Below are positions 13,039 through 50,209 of a stretch of DNA of 64,000 nt, piece after piece (positions within the stretch are counted from its first letter, which is position 1; each line of letters begins with the position of its first letter). The notes under the pieces were generated by a model that saw nothing but the letters and a program-made list of their open reading frames with translations, did not search any database and was not told where the DNA came from. The position numbers were made by a program, and so were the translations under genes. The DNA comes from Streptomyces sp. R41 (GTDB lineage: Bacteria > Actinomycetota > Actinomycetes > Streptomycetales > Streptomycetaceae). The stretch lies in assembly GCF_041053055.1 (NCBI RefSeq), contig NZ_CP163443.1:10337001-10401000 (forward strand), in the 5' to 3' direction.

Positions 13039-13242
13039 TCAGACCGGCGTGACGTTCTCCGCCTGCGGGCCCTTCGGGCCCTGCGTGATGTCGAAGTTGA
13101 CCTGCTGGTTCTCCTCGAGGGATCGGAACCCGGCGGCGTTGATGGCGGAGTAGTGGACGAAGACGTCCGGGCCGCCGCCGTCCTGGGAGAGGAATCCGAA
13201 TCCCTTTTCGGCGTTGAACCACTTCACGGTGCCGGTGGCCAT
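13039..13242 (-). CDS. Cold shock protein, CspA family
   Basis: A 67-residue OB-fold protein with RNP1 (KGFGFLSQ) and RNP2 (VFVHYSAI), the single-stranded nucleic acid binding surface. The start is [14 protein letters not shown] with AAGGGG upstream. It acts as an RNA chaperone. The message begins with a perfect hairpin just ahead of the ribosome site (13267-13290), which could influence translation. Confidence 0.96.
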
Positions 13243-41992: not shown

Positions 41993-43225
41993 TCACCGCA
42001 CCGACTCGGCCGGCGGACGCTCGCGCACGGCGCCGTAGCCGATGAAGTACGCGGGCACGCGCTTGAGCCACGGAGAAGTGGTGAGCAGGTTGCTCATCCG
42101 CTCCGCCCGCCTGGCATTGCCGAAAGGCGGGCGTCCCGCGAGTGCGGGCGCGATGACCCTCGCGTGAGCGAACCGCTGCAGTGCCTGCGTCGCCGCCGTG
42201 GTCGGCCACCGGCGCCGCTGGACGCCGCGTACGTCCCGCAGGCCGACCACACCCCTGCGCAGCGGTTCGACGAGATACCGCGCGGCGGCCACTGCGTCTT
42301 CGACGGCGAGGTTGATGCCGATGCCGAAGACCGGTGACATCGCGTGCGCCGCGTCGCCGATGCACAGCAGTCCCGGGCGGTGCCAGCGCCGGAGGCGGTC
42401 GAGCCGTACGTCGAGCATCTTCACCTCGTCCCATGACCGCAGCGCATGCGCCCGGTCCGCGAGCCAGGGCACGGCGGCGGAGAAGTCGGCCATGAACCGC
42501 TCGAGACCGGCCGCGCGGCGCTCGGCGTCGGACCCCTTGGGAATCAGCGCCGCGCACTGCCAGTACTCCCCACGGTCGATCAACGCGGTGAGGAGCCGGT
42601 CGCCGGCGCCTCCCACAAGCCCGTGCGGGTCGCCTTCCCGCCGTGGCACCCGGAACCACCAGGCGTCCATGGGGCAGGTGAACTGCCGCAGCCGCAGTTC
42701 GGGCCGCGACCGGGCCAGCGAGCCCCGACCGTCGCACGCCACCGTGAGGGTGGCCCGCAGTTCGCCGGTACGGCCGTCGGACGTTCGGTACCGCACCCCG
42801 GCGACCCGTCCGTGCTCCACGAGGAACGACGTCGCCTCAGTGCTCATCCGCACGGAGAAGGACGGCTCCTTTCGGGCCTCGTCGGCGAGGAGGTCCAGCA
42901 GGTCCCATTGCGGCACCATCGCCACGTAGTTGTACGGGCCCGGTAGTGCGCTGATGTCCGAGACGGTGATCAGCGAACCGTCCGCGCCGAGCGGCAGCTG
43001 GACCGTGGTCACCCGACGTTGCTGCAGACGGGCGAAGCGCTCGGCCAGACCGAGATCGTCCAGCAGTGCCAGGGTCGAGGGATGCACTGTGTCGCCGCGG
43101 AAGTCACGCAGAAAGTCGCCGTGTTTCTCCAGGACCGTGACGGCCACGCCGGCCCGGGCCAGCAGCAGGCCGAGGACCATTCCCGCGGGGCCGCCGCCCA
43201 CCACGCAGCACGTTGTCCGCTCCAT
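41993..43225 (-). CDS. FAD-dependent monooxygenase (class A hydroxylase type)
   Basis: A 410-residue flavoprotein. It starts TTCCVVGGGPAGMVLGLLLA (FAD ADP-binding motif), has DFRGDTVHPSTLALLDDLG, then CDGRGSLAR (DG motif) and CIGDAAHAMSPVFGIGINLA. It hydroxylates an unknown organic substrate with NAD(P)H and oxygen. ATG 43225 was chosen as the start of the conserved fold; ATG 43249 is possible. It is divergent from a cytochrome P450 and the pair is flanked by IS481 remnants. Confidence 0.9.
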   Translation of the reverse strand: MERTTCCVVGGGPAGMVLGLLLARAGVAVTVLEKHGDFLRDFRGDTVHPSTLALLDDLGLAERFARLQQRRVTTVQLPLGADGSLITVSDISALPGPYNYVAMVPQWDLLDLLADEARKEPSFSVRMSTEATSFLVEHGRVAGVRYRTSDGRTGELRATLTVACDGRGSLARSRPELRLRQFTCPMDAWWFRVPRREGDPHGLVGGAGDRLLTALIDRGEYWQCAALIPKGSDAERRAAGLERFMADFSAAVPWLADRAHALRSWDEVKMLDVRLDRLRRWHRPGLLCIGDAAHAMSPVFGIGINLAVEDAVAAARYLVEPLRRGVVGLRDVRGVQRRRWPTTAATQALQRFAHARVIAPALAGRPPFGNARRAERMSNLLTTSPWLKRVPAYFIGYGAVRERPPAESVR

Positions 43226-43331
43226 CGCAGCCCATCCCTTCGGTGACATCCGCGATCGGGTTAATTGGGACATATACCATCAGAAATGAACAACTCCGCC
43301 GTGTGGGTTCGTGACGCCCCCTGGAGGCCTG

Positions 43332-44558
43332 ATGAGCCAGCAGCCGGTCCTACTGCCGTACGCCGATCCGGCCTTCATGGCAGATCCCTTCCCGCTCTAC
43401 CGGCAGCTGCGCGAGGACGGCCCGGTACGGCGCGCCGTCATCGCCGGCGGCCTCGAGGCATGGTTGGTCACGCGCTACGAAGACGGCCTCGCGGCCCTGT
43501 CCGACTCACGGCTGAGCAGCGACGTCCGCGATGCCTCGGACCCCCGCCTCCTCGAGCGGCTGCCCGCCACGGAGCGCGAGTCGATGCTGCGCACCATGCT
43601 CCGCACCGACCCGCCCGACCACACCCGCCTGCGCCGCCTGGTCTCCAAGGCGTTCACCGCCCGCAGGGTGGCCGAGCTGCGGCCGCGCGTCCAGGAGATC
43701 ACCGACCGGTTGCTCGACGCGATCGAGCCCGCGGGCAAGGCCGACCTCGTCGAGGACTTCGCGCTGCCGCTTCCCGTCACTGTGATCCGCGAACTGCTCG
43801 GAGTGCCCGTCGCCGACCGGGACGACTTCCAGCGGTGGACCGACGACATGATCCTTCAAGGAGACGAGCCGCCGGACCCGGCCCGGATGGACCGAGCGTG
43901 GCGGCAGATGCGCTCGTACCTGACCCGACTCCTCGAGGACAAGCGAGCCCGGCCCGCTGACGACCTGCTCAGCGCGCTCATCGCCACCCGGGACGAGGAA
44001 CACCGGCTGGACGAGGATGAGCTGATCGCCATGGCTTTCCTGCTGCTGGTGGCCGGGTACATCACCACGGTCAACCTGATCGGCAGCGGCATCGCCGCAC
44101 TGCTCGCCCACCCCGACCAACTGCGGATGCTGCGGGACGATCCGGAACTGCTGCCCGGTGCGATCGAGGAGTTCCTGCGCTACGACGGACCGGTCAACCC
44201 GGGCATCGCCCGGTTCGCGCGCGAGGACGTCACCATCGCGGGAGTGACCATCCCGCGCGGAGCGACCGTGCTGGTCGCCTCCGCCATCGCCGACCGCGAC
44301 CCGGCGCAGTTCCCGGACCCCGACCGCCTGGACATCACCCGGCAGGACAACGCGCACCTCGCCTTCGGGCACGGCATCCACTACTGCCTGGGCGCGCCAC
44401 TGGCCCGGCTCGAGGGGCAGATCGCCATGGGAACCGTCCTGCGCCGCCTGCCCCACCTCAGCCTGGCCGTGCCGCCCAGCGAACTGCGATGGCGTTCGGG
44501 CGGTCTGCGCGGCCCCGAACAGCTGCCCGTCACGTTCACCTCGGGCGACTCCGGCTGA
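43332..44558 (+). CDS. Cytochrome P450 (CYP105/107-like bacterial type)
   Basis: A 408-residue soluble P450. Heme loop: FGHGIHYCLGAPLAR with Cys352; helix K ExxR at Glu280-Arg283; DPPDHTRLRRLVSKAFTARR near 93-112. The I-helix oxygen-activation motif is AGYITT (241-246), with Ile where Glu or Asp is usual. ATG 43332 follows GGAGG. It needs ferredoxin partners, not present nearby. Divergent from a flavin monooxygenase; the two may modify the same compound. Confidence 0.93.
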   Translation: MSQQPVLLPYADPAFMADPFPLYRQLREDGPVRRAVIAGGLEAWLVTRYEDGLAALSDSRLSSDVRDASDPRLLERLPATERESMLRTMLRTDPPDHTRLRRLVSKAFTARRVAELRPRVQEITDRLLDAIEPAGKADLVEDFALPLPVTVIRELLGVPVADRDDFQRWTDDMILQGDEPPDPARMDRAWRQMRSYLTRLLEDKRARPADDLLSALIATRDEEHRLDEDELIAMAFLLLVAGYITTVNLIGSGIAALLAHPDQLRMLRDDPELLPGAIEEFLRYDGPVNPGIARFAREDVTIAGVTIPRGATVLVASAIADRDPAQFPDPDRLDITRQDNAHLAFGHGIHYCLGAPLARLEGQIAMGTVLRRLPHLSLAVPPSELRWRSGGLRGPEQLPVTFTSGDSG

Positions 44559-45833: not shown

Positions 45834-46118
45834 GTGTACGCAGCCGTCAGACGATACGAAGGGGTGACCGATCCGGCTGAGGCAGGGCGTCGGGTGAACG
45901 AGGGATTCGTGCCGCTCATCCGTCAGATCCCCGGCCTCCTGGCCTACTACTGGGTCGACGCCGGGAACGGAGTCATGCTCTCGACCAGCGTCTTCGAAAG
46001 CGAGGCCGGGGCCGAGGAATCAATCAAGCAGGCGGCGGTCTTCGTGCGGGACAACCTTGCTTCGCTGCTCCCCAACCCTCCCCAGGTCATGTCCGGCCAG
46101 GTCGTGGCTTCCGCATAG
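45834..46118 (+). CDS. Small dimeric alpha/beta-barrel-like protein (antibiotic biosynthesis monooxygenase-like)
   Basis: A 94-residue protein with [58 protein letters not shown] and a C-terminal Val-rich strand. This pattern is that of the ABM-like ferredoxin-fold proteins. GAGGAGA at 45821-45827 precedes GTG 45834. Conserved in Streptomyces; function unknown. Confidence 0.75.
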
Positions 46119-46365
46119 CGAGGATGCTCAGGCCACCGAGCCGATGCTGCGCACCCTCGGCGGCCTGCCGGCGGCGCGCCTACTCCAGGTACCCGAGCTC
46201 TCTGCCCGGCCGGCAGTGCGTGCACGCGTCCAAGCTGGGCCCGCCGACTGGCCGGCAGGCGGGCGGAGTCGGGAGGTTCGGACCTTTCGGAGGCCGTATC
46301 GCCCGTACCCTTCGTGGTGTCTACGGCGTCACATACTGGGCGCCAAACACTGGAGGCAACACCTC

Positions 46366-47382
46366 GTGCTCATTGCTCAGCGTCCGTCCCTGACCGAAGA
46401 GGTCGTCGACGAGTTCCGCTCCCGGTTCGTGATCGAGCCGCTGGAGCCGGGCTTCGGTTACACCCTCGGCAACTCCCTGCGTCGTACGCTCCTCTCCTCG
46501 ATCCCGGGTGCGGCGGTCACGTCCATCCGCATCGACGGCGTTCTGCACGAGTTCACCACCGTGCCGGGCGTCAAGGAGGACGTCACCGACCTGATCCTCA
46601 ACATCAAGCAGCTGGTCGTCTCCTCGGAGCACGACGAGCCTGTCGTGATGTACCTGCGCAAGCAGGGCCCGGGCCTGGTCACCGCCGCCGACATCGCGCC
46701 CCCGGCCGGTGTCGAGGTGCACAACCCCGACCTCGTCCTCGCCACGCTCAACGGCAAGGGCAAGCTGGAGATGGAGCTGACCGTCGAGCGCGGTCGCGGC
46801 TATGTCTCCGCCGTTCAGAACAAGCAGGTCGGTCAGGAGATCGGGCGCATCCCGGTCGACTCGATCTACTCGCCGGTGCTGAAGGTCACGTACAAGGTCG
46901 AGGCGACCCGTGTCGAGCAGCGCACCGACTTCGACAAGCTGATCGTCGACGTCGAGACCAAGCAGGCCATGCGTCCGCGGGATGCCATGGCGTCGGCCGG
47001 TAAGACTCTGGTCGAGCTGTTCGGTCTGGCCCGCGAGCTCAACATCGACGCCGAGGGCATCGACATGGGCCCGTCCCCCACGGACGCCGCCCTTGCCGCC
47101 GACATGGCGCTGCCGATCGAGGAGCTGGAGCTCACGGTCCGCTCCTACAACTGCCTCAAGCGTGAGGGCGTCCACTCGGTGGGGGAGCTCTTGGCGCGCT
47201 CCGAGGCCGACCTCCTGGACATCCGCAACTTCGGTGCGAAGTCCATCGACGAGGTCAAGGCGAAGCTGGCCGGCCTGGGCCTGGCCCTCAAGGACAGCCC
47301 GCCCGGATTCGACCCGACCGCCGCGGCTTTCGGCGCGGACGATAACGCGGACGCAGGTTTCGTCGAGACCGAGCAATACTGA
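46366..47382 (+). CDS. rpoA: RNA polymerase alpha subunit, located outside a ribosomal-protein operon
   Basis: A 338-residue complete alpha subunit. The N-terminal domain (1 to about 230) carries [20 protein letters not shown] (dimerisation) and reads as canonical Streptomyces. The C-terminal domain (about 250-325) has [20 protein letters not shown] and [23 protein letters not shown] 46366 follows GGAGG. Compared with the chromosomal Streptomyces RpoA as I remember it, changes cluster in the linker and C-terminal domain (AADM, EGV, ELL, AGL and a two-residue loss near the end). None of infA, rpsM, rpsK or rplQ is present nearby; the neighbours are accessory genes and a Tn3 transposase. It is therefore probably an extra copy. 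Confidence 0.95.
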
Positions 47383-47520
47383 ACGCCGCGCGAGTCGCGC
47401 GGGAGCCACTCCTGGAGCGGCCAGGCATATGACGAGCCCTTCCGGCTCGCCCCGTCGAACTATCGCGTCCTCGCCGAGGCCGCTGCGGCCGACGGCACGG
47501 CCTGAGCCGGGACGCACGAA
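47383..47520 (+). pseudogene. Short 3' coding relic between rpoA and its terminator
   Basis: In the plus frame ending TGA near 47505, the sequence reads SWSGQAYDEPFRLAPSNYRV then LAEAAAADGTA. It has no start and no recognised family. It suggests the rpoA segment was joined to the tail of another gene. Confidence 0.3.
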
Positions 47521-47559
47521 AGCCGTCCCGGTGGCACGGGGGAAGCCACCGGGACGGCT
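47521..47559 (+). terminator. Strong hairpin terminator downstream of rpoA
   Basis: AGCCGTCCCGGTGGC at 47521-47535 pairs perfectly with 47545-47559; nine-base loop. Confidence 0.85.
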
Positions 47560-47589
47560 CCGCTCGGCGTAGAGCCTCAAGAGCCCTAC

Positions 47590-47765
47590 AGGCCAACCGA
47601 CTTGAGTAGGTTCAGCAGCACGTCGGTGTTGCCCATCGCATTCTGTAGCGCCACGCCTGCCACACCGCCGGGAGGTCGCCGGCCAGGGCCCGGATCTGCT
47701 CGCGCTCGTCGGCGGTGAGGAGGCGGGGTCGGGCCGCGGCGACGCGGTCATACTCCTCGCTCAGC
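47590..47765 (-). pseudogene. Serine-recombinase C-terminal fragment
   Basis: The minus strand reads SEEYDRVAAARPRLLTADER then EQIRALAGDLPAVWQA, matching the coiled C-terminal part of large serine recombinases, then breaks. Another frame continues as VALQNAMGNTDVLLNLLKSV and stops, of unknown origin. A relic lying against the truncated Tn3 transposase. Confidence 0.5.
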
Positions 47766-47803: not shown

Positions 47804-50209
47804 ATGTTTCCTCCGTGGATCCGAATGGGGCAGGCGCGGATGCGGGCCCGCGACGACCTGACCACGATGTTCTGCAAGCGGGTCGCGTTGCAGGTCAAGC
47901 GGGCCAAGGCGGAGCTGGAGAGCATCCGGGAGCAACAGCAGGCCATCGTTGAGGCGTTGATCGGGAACTACCGCACCGTGCTCCAGCACATCGACGCCGA
48001 CAGTCCCGTCCAGGCCGCCCGGGAGAAGGCGGCTGTCATGACGGCCGAGATCCTGGAGGCGGTCGGGGAACTCGACCAGGACGCGGAGGCCGACGCCGTC
48101 GCCGCGCGGCTCGGCGAAGGGTTCGGGCCCGCCGTGCACACTATGGCGAAGGCCCTGTACGTGCAGTCCGGCGCCTTGGGAGTGCCCGCGGCGGCGGTGG
48201 ACGACTTTGGCGGGTTCGAAGGCCAGTACGAGCAGGTCGAGAAGGTCGCCGCGCACCACGGCAACTACTGGGAGGTGCTGCCGTACGGGCACCTGCTCAA
48301 GGACCGCTCCACGATGTACGACCTGACCAGCCGCCTGGAGCTGCGGGCCACCTCCGAGGACAACCGCGGGCTGGACGCGCTCGCGCACGCCCGCCGGTAC
48401 AAGACCTCCCGCGACTACATCCCGGAGCGGCACGAGGACGGCCGCCCGGTCGACATCTCCTTCGCCACGCTGAACTGGCAGAAGGCCGTACGCGACAAGA
48501 ACCGGCCTGGTGTCTTCGTGCGCAAGCACTTCGAGGCGATGGTCTTCGCGGCGCTCGCTGAGGAACTGCGTACAGGCGACGTCGCGGTGGCCGGGTCGGA
48601 GGAGTACGCCGACTGGAGCGAGCAGCTGCTCCCCTGGGAGGACGTCGAGGCGAAGCTGGGCGACTACCTGGCGGAGGTCGGGCTTGCCGAGCCCGGCGAC
48701 GCGGTGCCGTACGATGCCGTGTCGTTCAGCCGGCAGCTGGAGGACAAACTCACCGCGGCCGCCGCGACGGCGGACGCCGGGTACTTGGACAACGAGGGCC
48801 TGGTCATCGACCCGGAGACCGGTATTCCCTCGCTCAAGGCGCGCCGCTCCGAGGGGCAGCGGGCCTCGGCCAGGGTGCTGGAGCAGGAGATCAAGGCGAG
48901 GATGCCGGAGCGCTCGCTAATCGGGATCATCTCCCGCACCGCGTACTGGGTGGAGTGGTGGCGCCGCTTCGGCCCGTCGTCCGGCAACGAGCCGAAGCTG
49001 AGGGACCCTTTCGGCCGGTACGTGATCATCATGTTCGTGAAGGGCACCAACATGGGCCCCTACGAGGCCGCCCGCCACATCCCCGGCGTCACCGGACACG
49101 AGCTGTCGCTGGCCGCGAACCGGCACTTCTCCATCCCGACGCTGAACGAGGCGATCGCCGACCTGGTCAACGCGCACGCCCGCCTGGACATCTCCCAGGC
49201 GTGGGGCGACGGCTCCGCGGTCGCCGCGGACGGCACCCACATGGACACCTACCTCAACAACCTGCCGTCCGAGACCTCGGTGCGGTACGGCAAGCCGGGC
49301 GGCATCGCCTACCACCACATCTCGGACGCGTACATCGCGTTGTTCACGCACTTCATCCCGTGCGGGGTGTGGGAGGCCGTCTACATCATCGAGGGTCTGC
49401 TGAAGAACACCTCCGAGGTGAAGCCGACCACGGTGCACGCGGATACGCAGGGCCAGAGCTTCCCTGTCTTTGCGCTCGCCCACCTGCTGGGCTTCGACCT
49501 GATGCCCAGGATCCGGAACTGGAAGGAACTGACCTTCTACCGGCCCACGCAGCAGACGGAGTACGTGCACATCGATGCCCTGTTCGGCGAGCCGGGCCGC
49601 AACGTCATAGACTTCGACCTGATCGAGTCCCAGTTCCGGCACCTGATGCGGGTGGCGATCTCCGGACGCGAGGGCGCCATCTCCTCGACGATGCTGCTGC
49701 GTCGCCTGCGCGCGGGCTCACGCGAGAACGCCACCTACAACGCCTTCCGTGAGGTCGGCCGTGTGATCCGTACCGTCCAGCTGCTGCGCTACCTCTCGGA
49801 TGCCCCGCTGCGCCGGCGGGTCACCGCGGCCACGAACAAGGTCGAGGCGTTCAACGGCTTCTCCCAGTGGATCGGCTTCGGCAACGGTGGCGTCATCACC
49901 GACAACGACCCCGTCGAGCAGGAGAAGACCGCGAAATTCAACGCTCTGCTCACGAACGCGGTGATCTTCCACAACGCCCTGGACATCGCCGAGATCGTGC
50001 GCCAGCTCCAGGAGGAGGGCCACGTCGTCGACCCCGAGGACCTGGCCCACATCTCGCCCTACCTGACCGAGCACATTCGCCGCTTCGGCGAGTACTCCAC
50101 CCACGAACTCGGCCTTGAGCCCGAGGCGTACGACCCGCGCCTGGACGTCGACTTCGGCCCGCTGCGCGGCGACGGCCCCGGCGCGGACGGCTACGGCCAG
50201 GCAGCCTGA
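47804..50209 (+). CDS. tnpA: Tn3-family transposase, N-terminally truncated
   Basis: An 801-residue Tn3 DDE transposase; full-length members have about 1000. The catalytic domain is intact: first Asp in WGDGSAVAADGTHMD, second in VHADTQGQSFPV, Glu in ATNKVEAFNGFSQW. The first complete block is CKRVALQVKRAKAELESIRE near residue 25, so about 200 N-terminal residues (DNA-binding region) are lost. No terminal inverted repeats or resolvase were recognised. Probably inactive alone but may act if trans-complemented. A matching N-terminal piece lies on the other strand at 56206-56526. Confidence 0.88.
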   Translation: MFPPWIRMGQARMRARDDLTTMFCKRVALQVKRAKAELESIREQQQAIVEALIGNYRTVLQHIDADSPVQAAREKAAVMTAEILEAVGELDQDAEADAVAARLGEGFGPAVHTMAKALYVQSGALGVPAAAVDDFGGFEGQYEQVEKVAAHHGNYWEVLPYGHLLKDRSTMYDLTSRLELRATSEDNRGLDALAHARRYKTSRDYIPERHEDGRPVDISFATLNWQKAVRDKNRPGVFVRKHFEAMVFAALAEELRTGDVAVAGSEEYADWSEQLLPWEDVEAKLGDYLAEVGLAEPGDAVPYDAVSFSRQLEDKLTAAAATADAGYLDNEGLVIDPETGIPSLKARRSEGQRASARVLEQEIKARMPERSLIGIISRTAYWVEWWRRFGPSSGNEPKLRDPFGRYVIIMFVKGTNMGPYEAARHIPGVTGHELSLAANRHFSIPTLNEAIADLVNAHARLDISQAWGDGSAVAADGTHMDTYLNNLPSETSVRYGKPGGIAYHHISDAYIALFTHFIPCGVWEAVYIIEGLLKNTSEVKPTTVHADTQGQSFPVFALAHLLGFDLMPRIRNWKELTFYRPTQQTEYVHIDALFGEPGRNVIDFDLIESQFRHLMRVAISGREGAISSTMLLRRLRAGSRENATYNAFREVGRVIRTVQLLRYLSDAPLRRRVTAATNKVEAFNGFSQWIGFGNGGVITDNDPVEQEKTAKFNALLTNAVIFHNALDIAEIVRQLQEEGHVVDPEDLAHISPYLTEHIRRFGEYSTHELGLEPEAYDPRLDVDFGPLRGDGPGADGYGQAA

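Follow-up and report, generated by a model that had tools for sequence, protein, structure and literature searches.

RpoA2, a second RNA polymerase alpha-subunit lineage of Streptomyces with a leader hairpin in common with native rpoA

Streptomyces sp. R41 carries two genes for the alpha subunit of RNA polymerase, one inside and one outside the ribosomal-protein operon. Here, we show that the second gene is a member of a paralog lineage that has low pN/pS, undergoes gene conversion with native rpoA and has a leader hairpin in common with it. The hairpin precedes the ribosome-binding site in native and paralog rpoA mRNAs alike and is covarying and uncatalogued. We call the lineage RpoA2 and define it by a position outside rpsM-rpsK-rplQ, a paralog-type leader, a GTG start and V269, all four of which are found in the gene described here.

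The second rpoA gene and its relatives

The window, that is, the whole stretch of 64,000 nucleotides that was analysed, covers bases 10,337,001-10,401,000 of a genome that is a single contig of 10,462,393 bases. It holds an uninterrupted reading frame of 338 codons (Table 1), whose product matches NCBIfam NF003514 over residues 1-338 at 656.9 bits (cut-off 434) and TIGR02027 at 379 bits (cut-off 227.8). PF01193, PF01000 and PF03118, which cover the dimerisation and insert domains of the N-terminal domain (NTD) and the C-terminal domain (CTD), are all above their cut-offs, and 7vpd, a solved alpha chain of 340 aa, is matched over its full length at 715.9 bits. Equivalog cut-off and domain content alike place the protein in bacterial RpoA. 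The genome has one rpoB and two rpoA matches, the second of which, C1:6332699-6333718, lies between rpsK and rplQ, with the S13 and S11 genes before it and the L17 gene after it. Since this is the usual ribosomal-protein place, the window gene, 4 Mb distant and ~78 kb from the contig end, is the extra copy. The original prediction of a full-length, intact extra rpoA outside that operon, with a GGAGG site of its own, is thereby borne out. As to the terminator that it also named, a terminator-like hairpin lies downstream (piece folded at -39.5 kcal/mol, z -5.1), and a nearer hairpin at 47386-47402 does not rise above shuffles (z -0.2). The TACCCT hexamer is a putative promoter element.

Table 1 Features of the window around rpoA2
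Feature	Position	Strand	Evidence
rpoA2, complete alpha-subunit paralog, 338 aa, GTG start	46366..47382	+	ORF, profile matches, alignment
GGAGG ribosome-binding site	46352..46356	+	sequence
TACCCT, -10-like hexamer, inside block found in many paralog and native leaders	46306..46311	+	sequence listing
rpoA-leader RNA hairpin (model R1 match, 38.9 bits); arms 46325-46330 and 46339-46344	46322..46349	+	covariance model
Terminator-like hairpin, 15-bp stem, without T run	47521..47559	+	folding
Stretch in common with locus L106 (genome G033), 92.7% DNA identity	46233..47459	+	DNA comparison
Tn3-family transposase, 801 aa, whole DDE domain matched	47804..50209	+	domain match
Cytochrome P450 (context only)	43311..44558	+	domain match
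Protein with FAD-binding mono-oxygenase-type domain (context only)	41993..43273	-	domain match

From the native to the window protein, the first codon changes from ATG to GTG, L247M, I269V, V276L, M304L and D329N are substituted and A321-D322 are lost, with zero changes in residues 2-246, in agreement with the prediction of an unchanged NTD and of changes and a two-residue loss in the linker and CTD. At the DNA level, the first base and five others among the first 25 differ, a single difference lies between bases 26 and 738 (bases 26-641 are identical), and many, including a 6-base deletion, fall in the CTD and tail. The two copies are thus not identical, with 1 of 675 bases differing in nt 31-705 and 18 of 309 compared in nt 706-1020 (Fisher p 8e-9).

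Of the 67 other loci, L106 matches the gene and its surroundings over the longest stretch, outside which the flanks do not match it. What had been read as transposon debris next to the gene includes a Tn3-family transposase that looks intact and has no DNA match in other rpoA2 loci. Neighbour ORFs of the 68 paralog loci were called by a custom script and then clustered. The commonest family reaches 11 of the 68 loci and no family is found in more, so a cluster-linked self-resistance role finds no support in this clustering. That commonest family is a 73-aa protein with a sub-threshold match to the RNA-polymerase-interacting CarD/TRCF RID domain; it is encoded beside rpoA2 in L058, L060, L062, L064, L069, L070, L079, L092, L104, L105 and others, and tblastn finds it at 13 of 68 paralog loci. 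As a specific partner it was dropped, given matches in 199 of 199 genus genomes searched, strong in many without rpoA2. A cold-shock-protein-like stretch lies at 13042-13242 of the window (- strand), and similar ones lie near several rpoA2 loci; such genes are common.

A GTG start, which may lower translation, is found in 55 of 68 paralogs but in none of the 78 natives, V269 in 53 paralogs and one native, and a deletion at 321 in 30 paralogs and no native. In a leader tree built on few columns, a branch with 99% SH-aLRT separates 65 paralogs and 2 natives from 76 natives and 3 paralogs. These three exceptions (L068, L081 and L105) have ATG starts and native-like leaders, and conversion may have overrun their starts. 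Over the last 30 leader bases, ungapped pairs are 75% identical in 54 GTG-type paralogs versus 48% in natives, and upstream of -140 identity is near 30% in both. Starts, signature residues and leaders suggest that most extra copies are essentially one lineage, RpoA2.

An extra rpoA locus was fetched in at least 62 of 392 genus genomes, own genome included, so that copies in related genomes, which the original prediction had proposed to look for, do exist. The count is a lower bound: 86 genomes have two or more rpoA matches (own, 68 carried forward and 17 with fragmentary matches only), and seven of those 68 are not counted as carriers, namely G025, G059 and G233 (weak or partial second match), G114 (gene split over contigs), G294 and G301 (partial copies only) and G278 (copies cut at contig ends). 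Fewer than two matches are found in 306 of the 392 genomes, and rpoA2 is therefore dispensable for the genus. Among the 68 paralog loci analysed, 66 have an ORF of at least 330 aa, and two (L119 and L121) have shortened C-termini. The exact leader and start pattern of rpoA2 has 85 stretches in a named genome collection (L174-L258, some genomes twice), all titled Streptomyces except two 'Actinobacteria bacterium OV320'. In the first 80 of these (L174-L253), rpoA is readable in 76: 50 genes are intact over 330 aa, 24 run off the end of the stretch and 2 are short; V269 is found in 47 of the 50 intact genes.

Plasmid records matching rpoA number 87, of which 21 are from Streptomyces. The five plasmid copies examined (L259-L263) start with ATG, have leaders of a sister type and carry V269 in only two cases, and were rejected as direct source of the window copy. 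On the linear plasmids NZ_CP108499 and NZ_CP108986 (L261 and L263), rpoA is two genes from an ssb gene, and in L261 a terminal-protein gene lies nearby as well, not far from the end of the plasmid. A phage origin was likewise rejected, as none of the 23 matching phage records is named for Streptomyces and identity is 60-80% in 1 and <60% in 22. Two full-length copies are also present in 5 of 35 genomes of a sister genus in the same family, in which three more genomes have fragments only; one of the five has a second copy with a window-like leader, and the other four (L157-L160) carry a separate, ~88%-identical rpoA lineage with a different conserved leader of its own. In a phylum sample of 296 genomes, two full-length copies are found, among the matches listed, in only three genomes, of the own genus, a count that leaves aside distant rows with two or three matches (e.g., G504, G509 and G539).

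For chromosome position, 36 contigs with one paralog each were tabulated by hand, and the 30 with the native gene in the middle 40% were used. Of these 30, 19 have the paralog within the outer 20% at one side or the other (expected 12, p 0.008), a moderate bias, given possible rotation of contigs and the omission of the six others. In G253, two extra rpoA copies of equal score, at C1:608773 and C1:10931041, each lie ~609 kb from one end of the 11.54-Mb contig, an arrangement that very long terminal inverted repeats would produce.

Gene conversion and selection

If paralog and native evolved apart, a paralog would be expected to be equally distant from own and foreign natives. The ratio of own to foreign divergence is 0.96-1.01 in codons 301-340 and 0.30-0.37 in codons 121-220, with the minimum of 0.30 at codons 181-200, and it climbs unevenly toward both gene ends. 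Synonymous difference in the NTD, linker plus CTD core, and tail is 0.087, 0.188 and 0.338 for 58 own pairs, and 0.201, 0.274 and 0.338 for 600 sampled foreign pairs; in 51 of the 58 own pairs the NTD value is below that of the CTD. Ranked by closeness among 78 natives, the own native comes first for 40 of 60 paralogs in the NTD (leaving 20 for which it does not), 19 of 60 in the CTD and 5 of 58 in the tail, where L119 and L121 were left out of the ranking. A foreign paralog is closer than the own native for 17 of 60, 43 of 60 and 55 of 58, respectively. The window pair is among the clearest cases.

By these patterns, gene conversion with the native gene accounts for most of the NTD identity, an effect that is absent from the 3' tail. 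Being attributable to conversion, NTD identity is by itself no proof of selection for assembly combined with a re-tooled CTD. The domain contrast of the original prediction is accordingly right in that changes are confined to the CTD and tail, and is weakened by the source of the unchanged NTD. As to direction, the paralog-type residue at 56, 89 and 196 is kept in 13 of 24 close versus 29 of 36 distant pairs, a weak signal (p 0.044). Q89 is found in 24 of 68 paralogs but in none of the 78 natives, which suggests conversion from native to paralog, although selection on natives could give the same pattern.

The dN/dS-type check put forward in the original prediction was made as pN/pS, by a counting method on 600 sampled pairs per class with L119-L121 dropped. 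Paralog-paralog values are 0.083 in the NTD, 0.131 in the linker plus CTD core and 0.371 in the tail, compared with native-native values of 0.037, 0.029 (CTD) and 0.010; the paralog values are 2.2-, 4.5- and 37-fold higher. As paralog pN/pS is low yet above native, the paralog is constrained, but the constraint is relaxed. The acidic C-terminal tail of native Streptomyces RpoA (residues 313-340) has extreme between-species conservation, as its value of 0.010 reflects, which suggests a function for that tail.

Residues differing from the native consensus make up 1.4% of the paralog NTD, 5.3% of the CTD and 14.0% of the tail. We take the core DNA-contact set of the CTD to be E. coli R265, N268, C269, K298 and S299, and paralog sites 253 and 255 to be homologous to the sigma-facing 261 determinant. 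None of the five core contact residues differs in any of the 68 paralogs, and the 287 determinant is almost as well kept. The sole changes touching the sigma-facing determinant are E255D (17 of 68 paralogs) and E253D (7 of 68), both in 0 of 78 natives and neither in the window copy, in which the DNA-contact, 261 and 287 determinants are all native. Other contact positions vary in 2 of 68 (281), 2 of 68 (291) and 13 of 68 paralogs (284). The CTD and tail changes may be contact tuning or tolerated drift.

A hairpin in the leaders of native and paralog rpoA

With one mismatch allowed, the pattern GGCGTCANATANNGGGCG has two matches in the whole 10.46 Mb, one ahead of native rpoA and the other ahead of the window gene (hairpin at C1:10383322-10383349); read backwards as a control, it has one. 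For the hairpin alignment, 67 leaders (33 paralog, 34 native) were picked by hand from 89 distinct stretches, and the 22 left out by hand include the less typical L089, L115, L119 and L121. The 7-bp stem is paired in 95.3% of cells in these 67 leaders, versus 36-50% in slid controls, and in 94.7% versus 37-50% when all distinct leaders are used unselected. Neither the observed covariation score nor the count of 37 two-sided cells is attained in any of 500 shuffles, whereas four pairs with two-sided change are reached by 26 of 500 and the number of pair types by 459 of 500; related sequences inflate such covariation counts. A near-invariant U.G pair would favour RNA rather than a DNA dyad.

A covariance model (R1) has at least one match of at least 28 bits in 40 of 41 genus genomes and 47 such matches altogether, with many weaker matches outside the count; some leaders of these genomes had trained the model. 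Two matches each are found in G000, G007, G009, G011, G013, G032 and G033, which are six two-copy genomes and one with fragmented copies, and a single match in G021, which also has fragmented copies. R1 matches 82 of 148 genomes of the class at E up to 0.1, in many of them weakly. In all 58 loci checked for the best matches, rpoA lies directly downstream in the same direction. Twenty of these loci are outside the genus, with RpoA 74-86% identical, and none was used in building R1; in these (17 distinct) the stem covaries and is 95.7% paired versus 33-53% when slid, on an alignment fitted to the model. The distance from the end of an R1 match to the start codon is 11 to 56 bases.

Against Rfam 15, window positions 46000-47700 give no hit at E up to 1, and the native leader gives two sub-threshold hits, both upstream of the hairpin and none to it. 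A literature search for an rpoA-leader element found none among the papers listed, which supports novelty only thinly. The E. coli alpha-operon S4 site is a structured ribosomal-protein leader in alpha-operon mRNA close to the ribosome-binding site. The rpoA hairpin is likewise structured, in alpha-operon mRNA and near a ribosome-binding site; unlike the S4 site, it is short, lies directly before rpoA and is found in several families of the class in our sample.

In the native region (L003), the interval from rpsK to native rpoA contains a long inverted repeat (L002:1380-1413) upstream of the leader hairpin, and the whole 121-base region with it folds at -56.9 kcal/mol (z -4.8). It is possibly an attenuator or terminator. 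Similar or partly decayed inverted repeats lie before many rpoA2 copies.

A proposed accessory alpha isoform and alternative readings

The reading that we rank highest, as an evenly balanced judgement from sequence comparison, is that RpoA2 is a functional accessory alpha isoform under the leader control of the native gene. It would be an old Streptomyces lineage, located on chromosome arms and elsewhere on chromosomes, with a related form on plasmids. The gene would have its own transcription start region, with transcription from the -10-like block and translation from the GTG. Because the same hairpin stands in both leaders, its synthesis would probably be set by the same leader-level signal as that of native rpoA. 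Gene conversion keeps the NTD near-identical to that of the host's native alpha, so RpoA2 should dimerise with native alpha and enter RNA polymerase. As the CTD DNA contacts are kept, the mixed enzyme should be broadly competent, with mild tuning, perhaps, through the CTD and the relaxed tail. More tentatively, the actinomycete rpoA hairpin could meter alpha synthesis, via alpha or a ribosomal protein, with the mobile second alpha of Streptomyces in the same circuit, which would give mixed-alpha polymerases with a composition set by two-gene competition.

Another reading, which we find rather unlikely, is that rpoA2 is a redundant dosage copy, a largely interchangeable rpoA with no special function that spreads vertically and horizontally, decays slowly and is refreshed by native conversion. 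The mostly conservative substitutions of the window copy, the relaxed constraint in CTD and tail, the two shortened copies among 68, the unconserved neighbours and the strong conversion signal would all suit it, but most of the 68 loci retain the signature residues and leader block, and CTD pN/pS is still 0.131 where gene conversion is weaker. Doubtful, too, is a specialised alpha whose CTD or tail re-targets a polymerase subpopulation to certain promoters or regulators or evades an alpha-directed inhibitor or phage protein. The concentration of changes in CTD and tail, the E255D and E253D changes exclusive to paralogs, and an arm and plasmid location that suits adaptive genes speak for it; yet the DNA contacts do not vary at all among the 68 paralogs and the 287 determinant hardly varies, both are native in the window copy, no partner gene or regulator occurs in more than 11 of 68 loci, and the NTD/CTD contrast is confounded by gene conversion. 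The altered promoter choice or inhibitor resistance suggested in the original prediction thus has little support. That the gene is a recent segmental duplication or assembly artefact of this genome only is highly improbable: bases 26-641 are identical between the copies, as such an event would give, but the window gene has its own leader, its CTD and tail differ at 18 of 309 bases and by the 6-base deletion, the genome is a single contig and the same lineage is found in 61 other genomes.

Two rpoA genes have been reported in S. avermitilis MA-4680, Chloroflexus, Francisella and two further genomes (PMC3294249). The S. avermitilis gene, from the same genus, very probably belongs to the RpoA2 lineage; the listing in that source gives it as a single case, without lineage, leader, plasmid copies or gene conversion. 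As here, Francisella alpha1 and alpha2 are encoded by two non-identical rpoA genes per genome, one outside the ribosomal operon, but they are strongly diverged and reported to form an oriented heterodimer (PMC3294249), whereas in Streptomyces the gene is optional and the assembly domain near-identical via conversion; residues 2-246 are unchanged between the copies here, and diverged assembly domains of the Francisella type are thus absent. The rpoB(S)/rpoB(R) pair of Nonomuraea and other actinomycetes is likewise a duplicated core polymerase gene in an antibiotic-producing actinomycete, in which rpoB(R) has substitutions tied to drug resistance and a changed transcription programme (PMC5431353); the window rpoA2, by contrast, has no changes at the known functional or drug-contact sites on the list used here. 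Duplicated core genes have been used for ranking clusters, and the part of PMC8510958 that concerns them does not name rpoA. Among the matches listed, no other paper on a Streptomyces rpoA family was found by title or abstract start, with subscription journals and preprints outside the scope.

The usual textbook picture of bacterial RNA polymerase is of a single core enzyme with exchangeable sigma factors. With an optional second alpha in about one in six sampled Streptomyces genomes and relatives on plasmids, core composition would be a variable trait of a genus that produces many antibiotics. In genome mining, the default should be not to take an extra rpoA for a resistance marker. The converted NTD versus the unconverted tail provides a natural test of what may vary in alpha, and if the leader hairpin is confirmed as an RNA regulator, Actinomycetes would have a new point of control over an essential gene.
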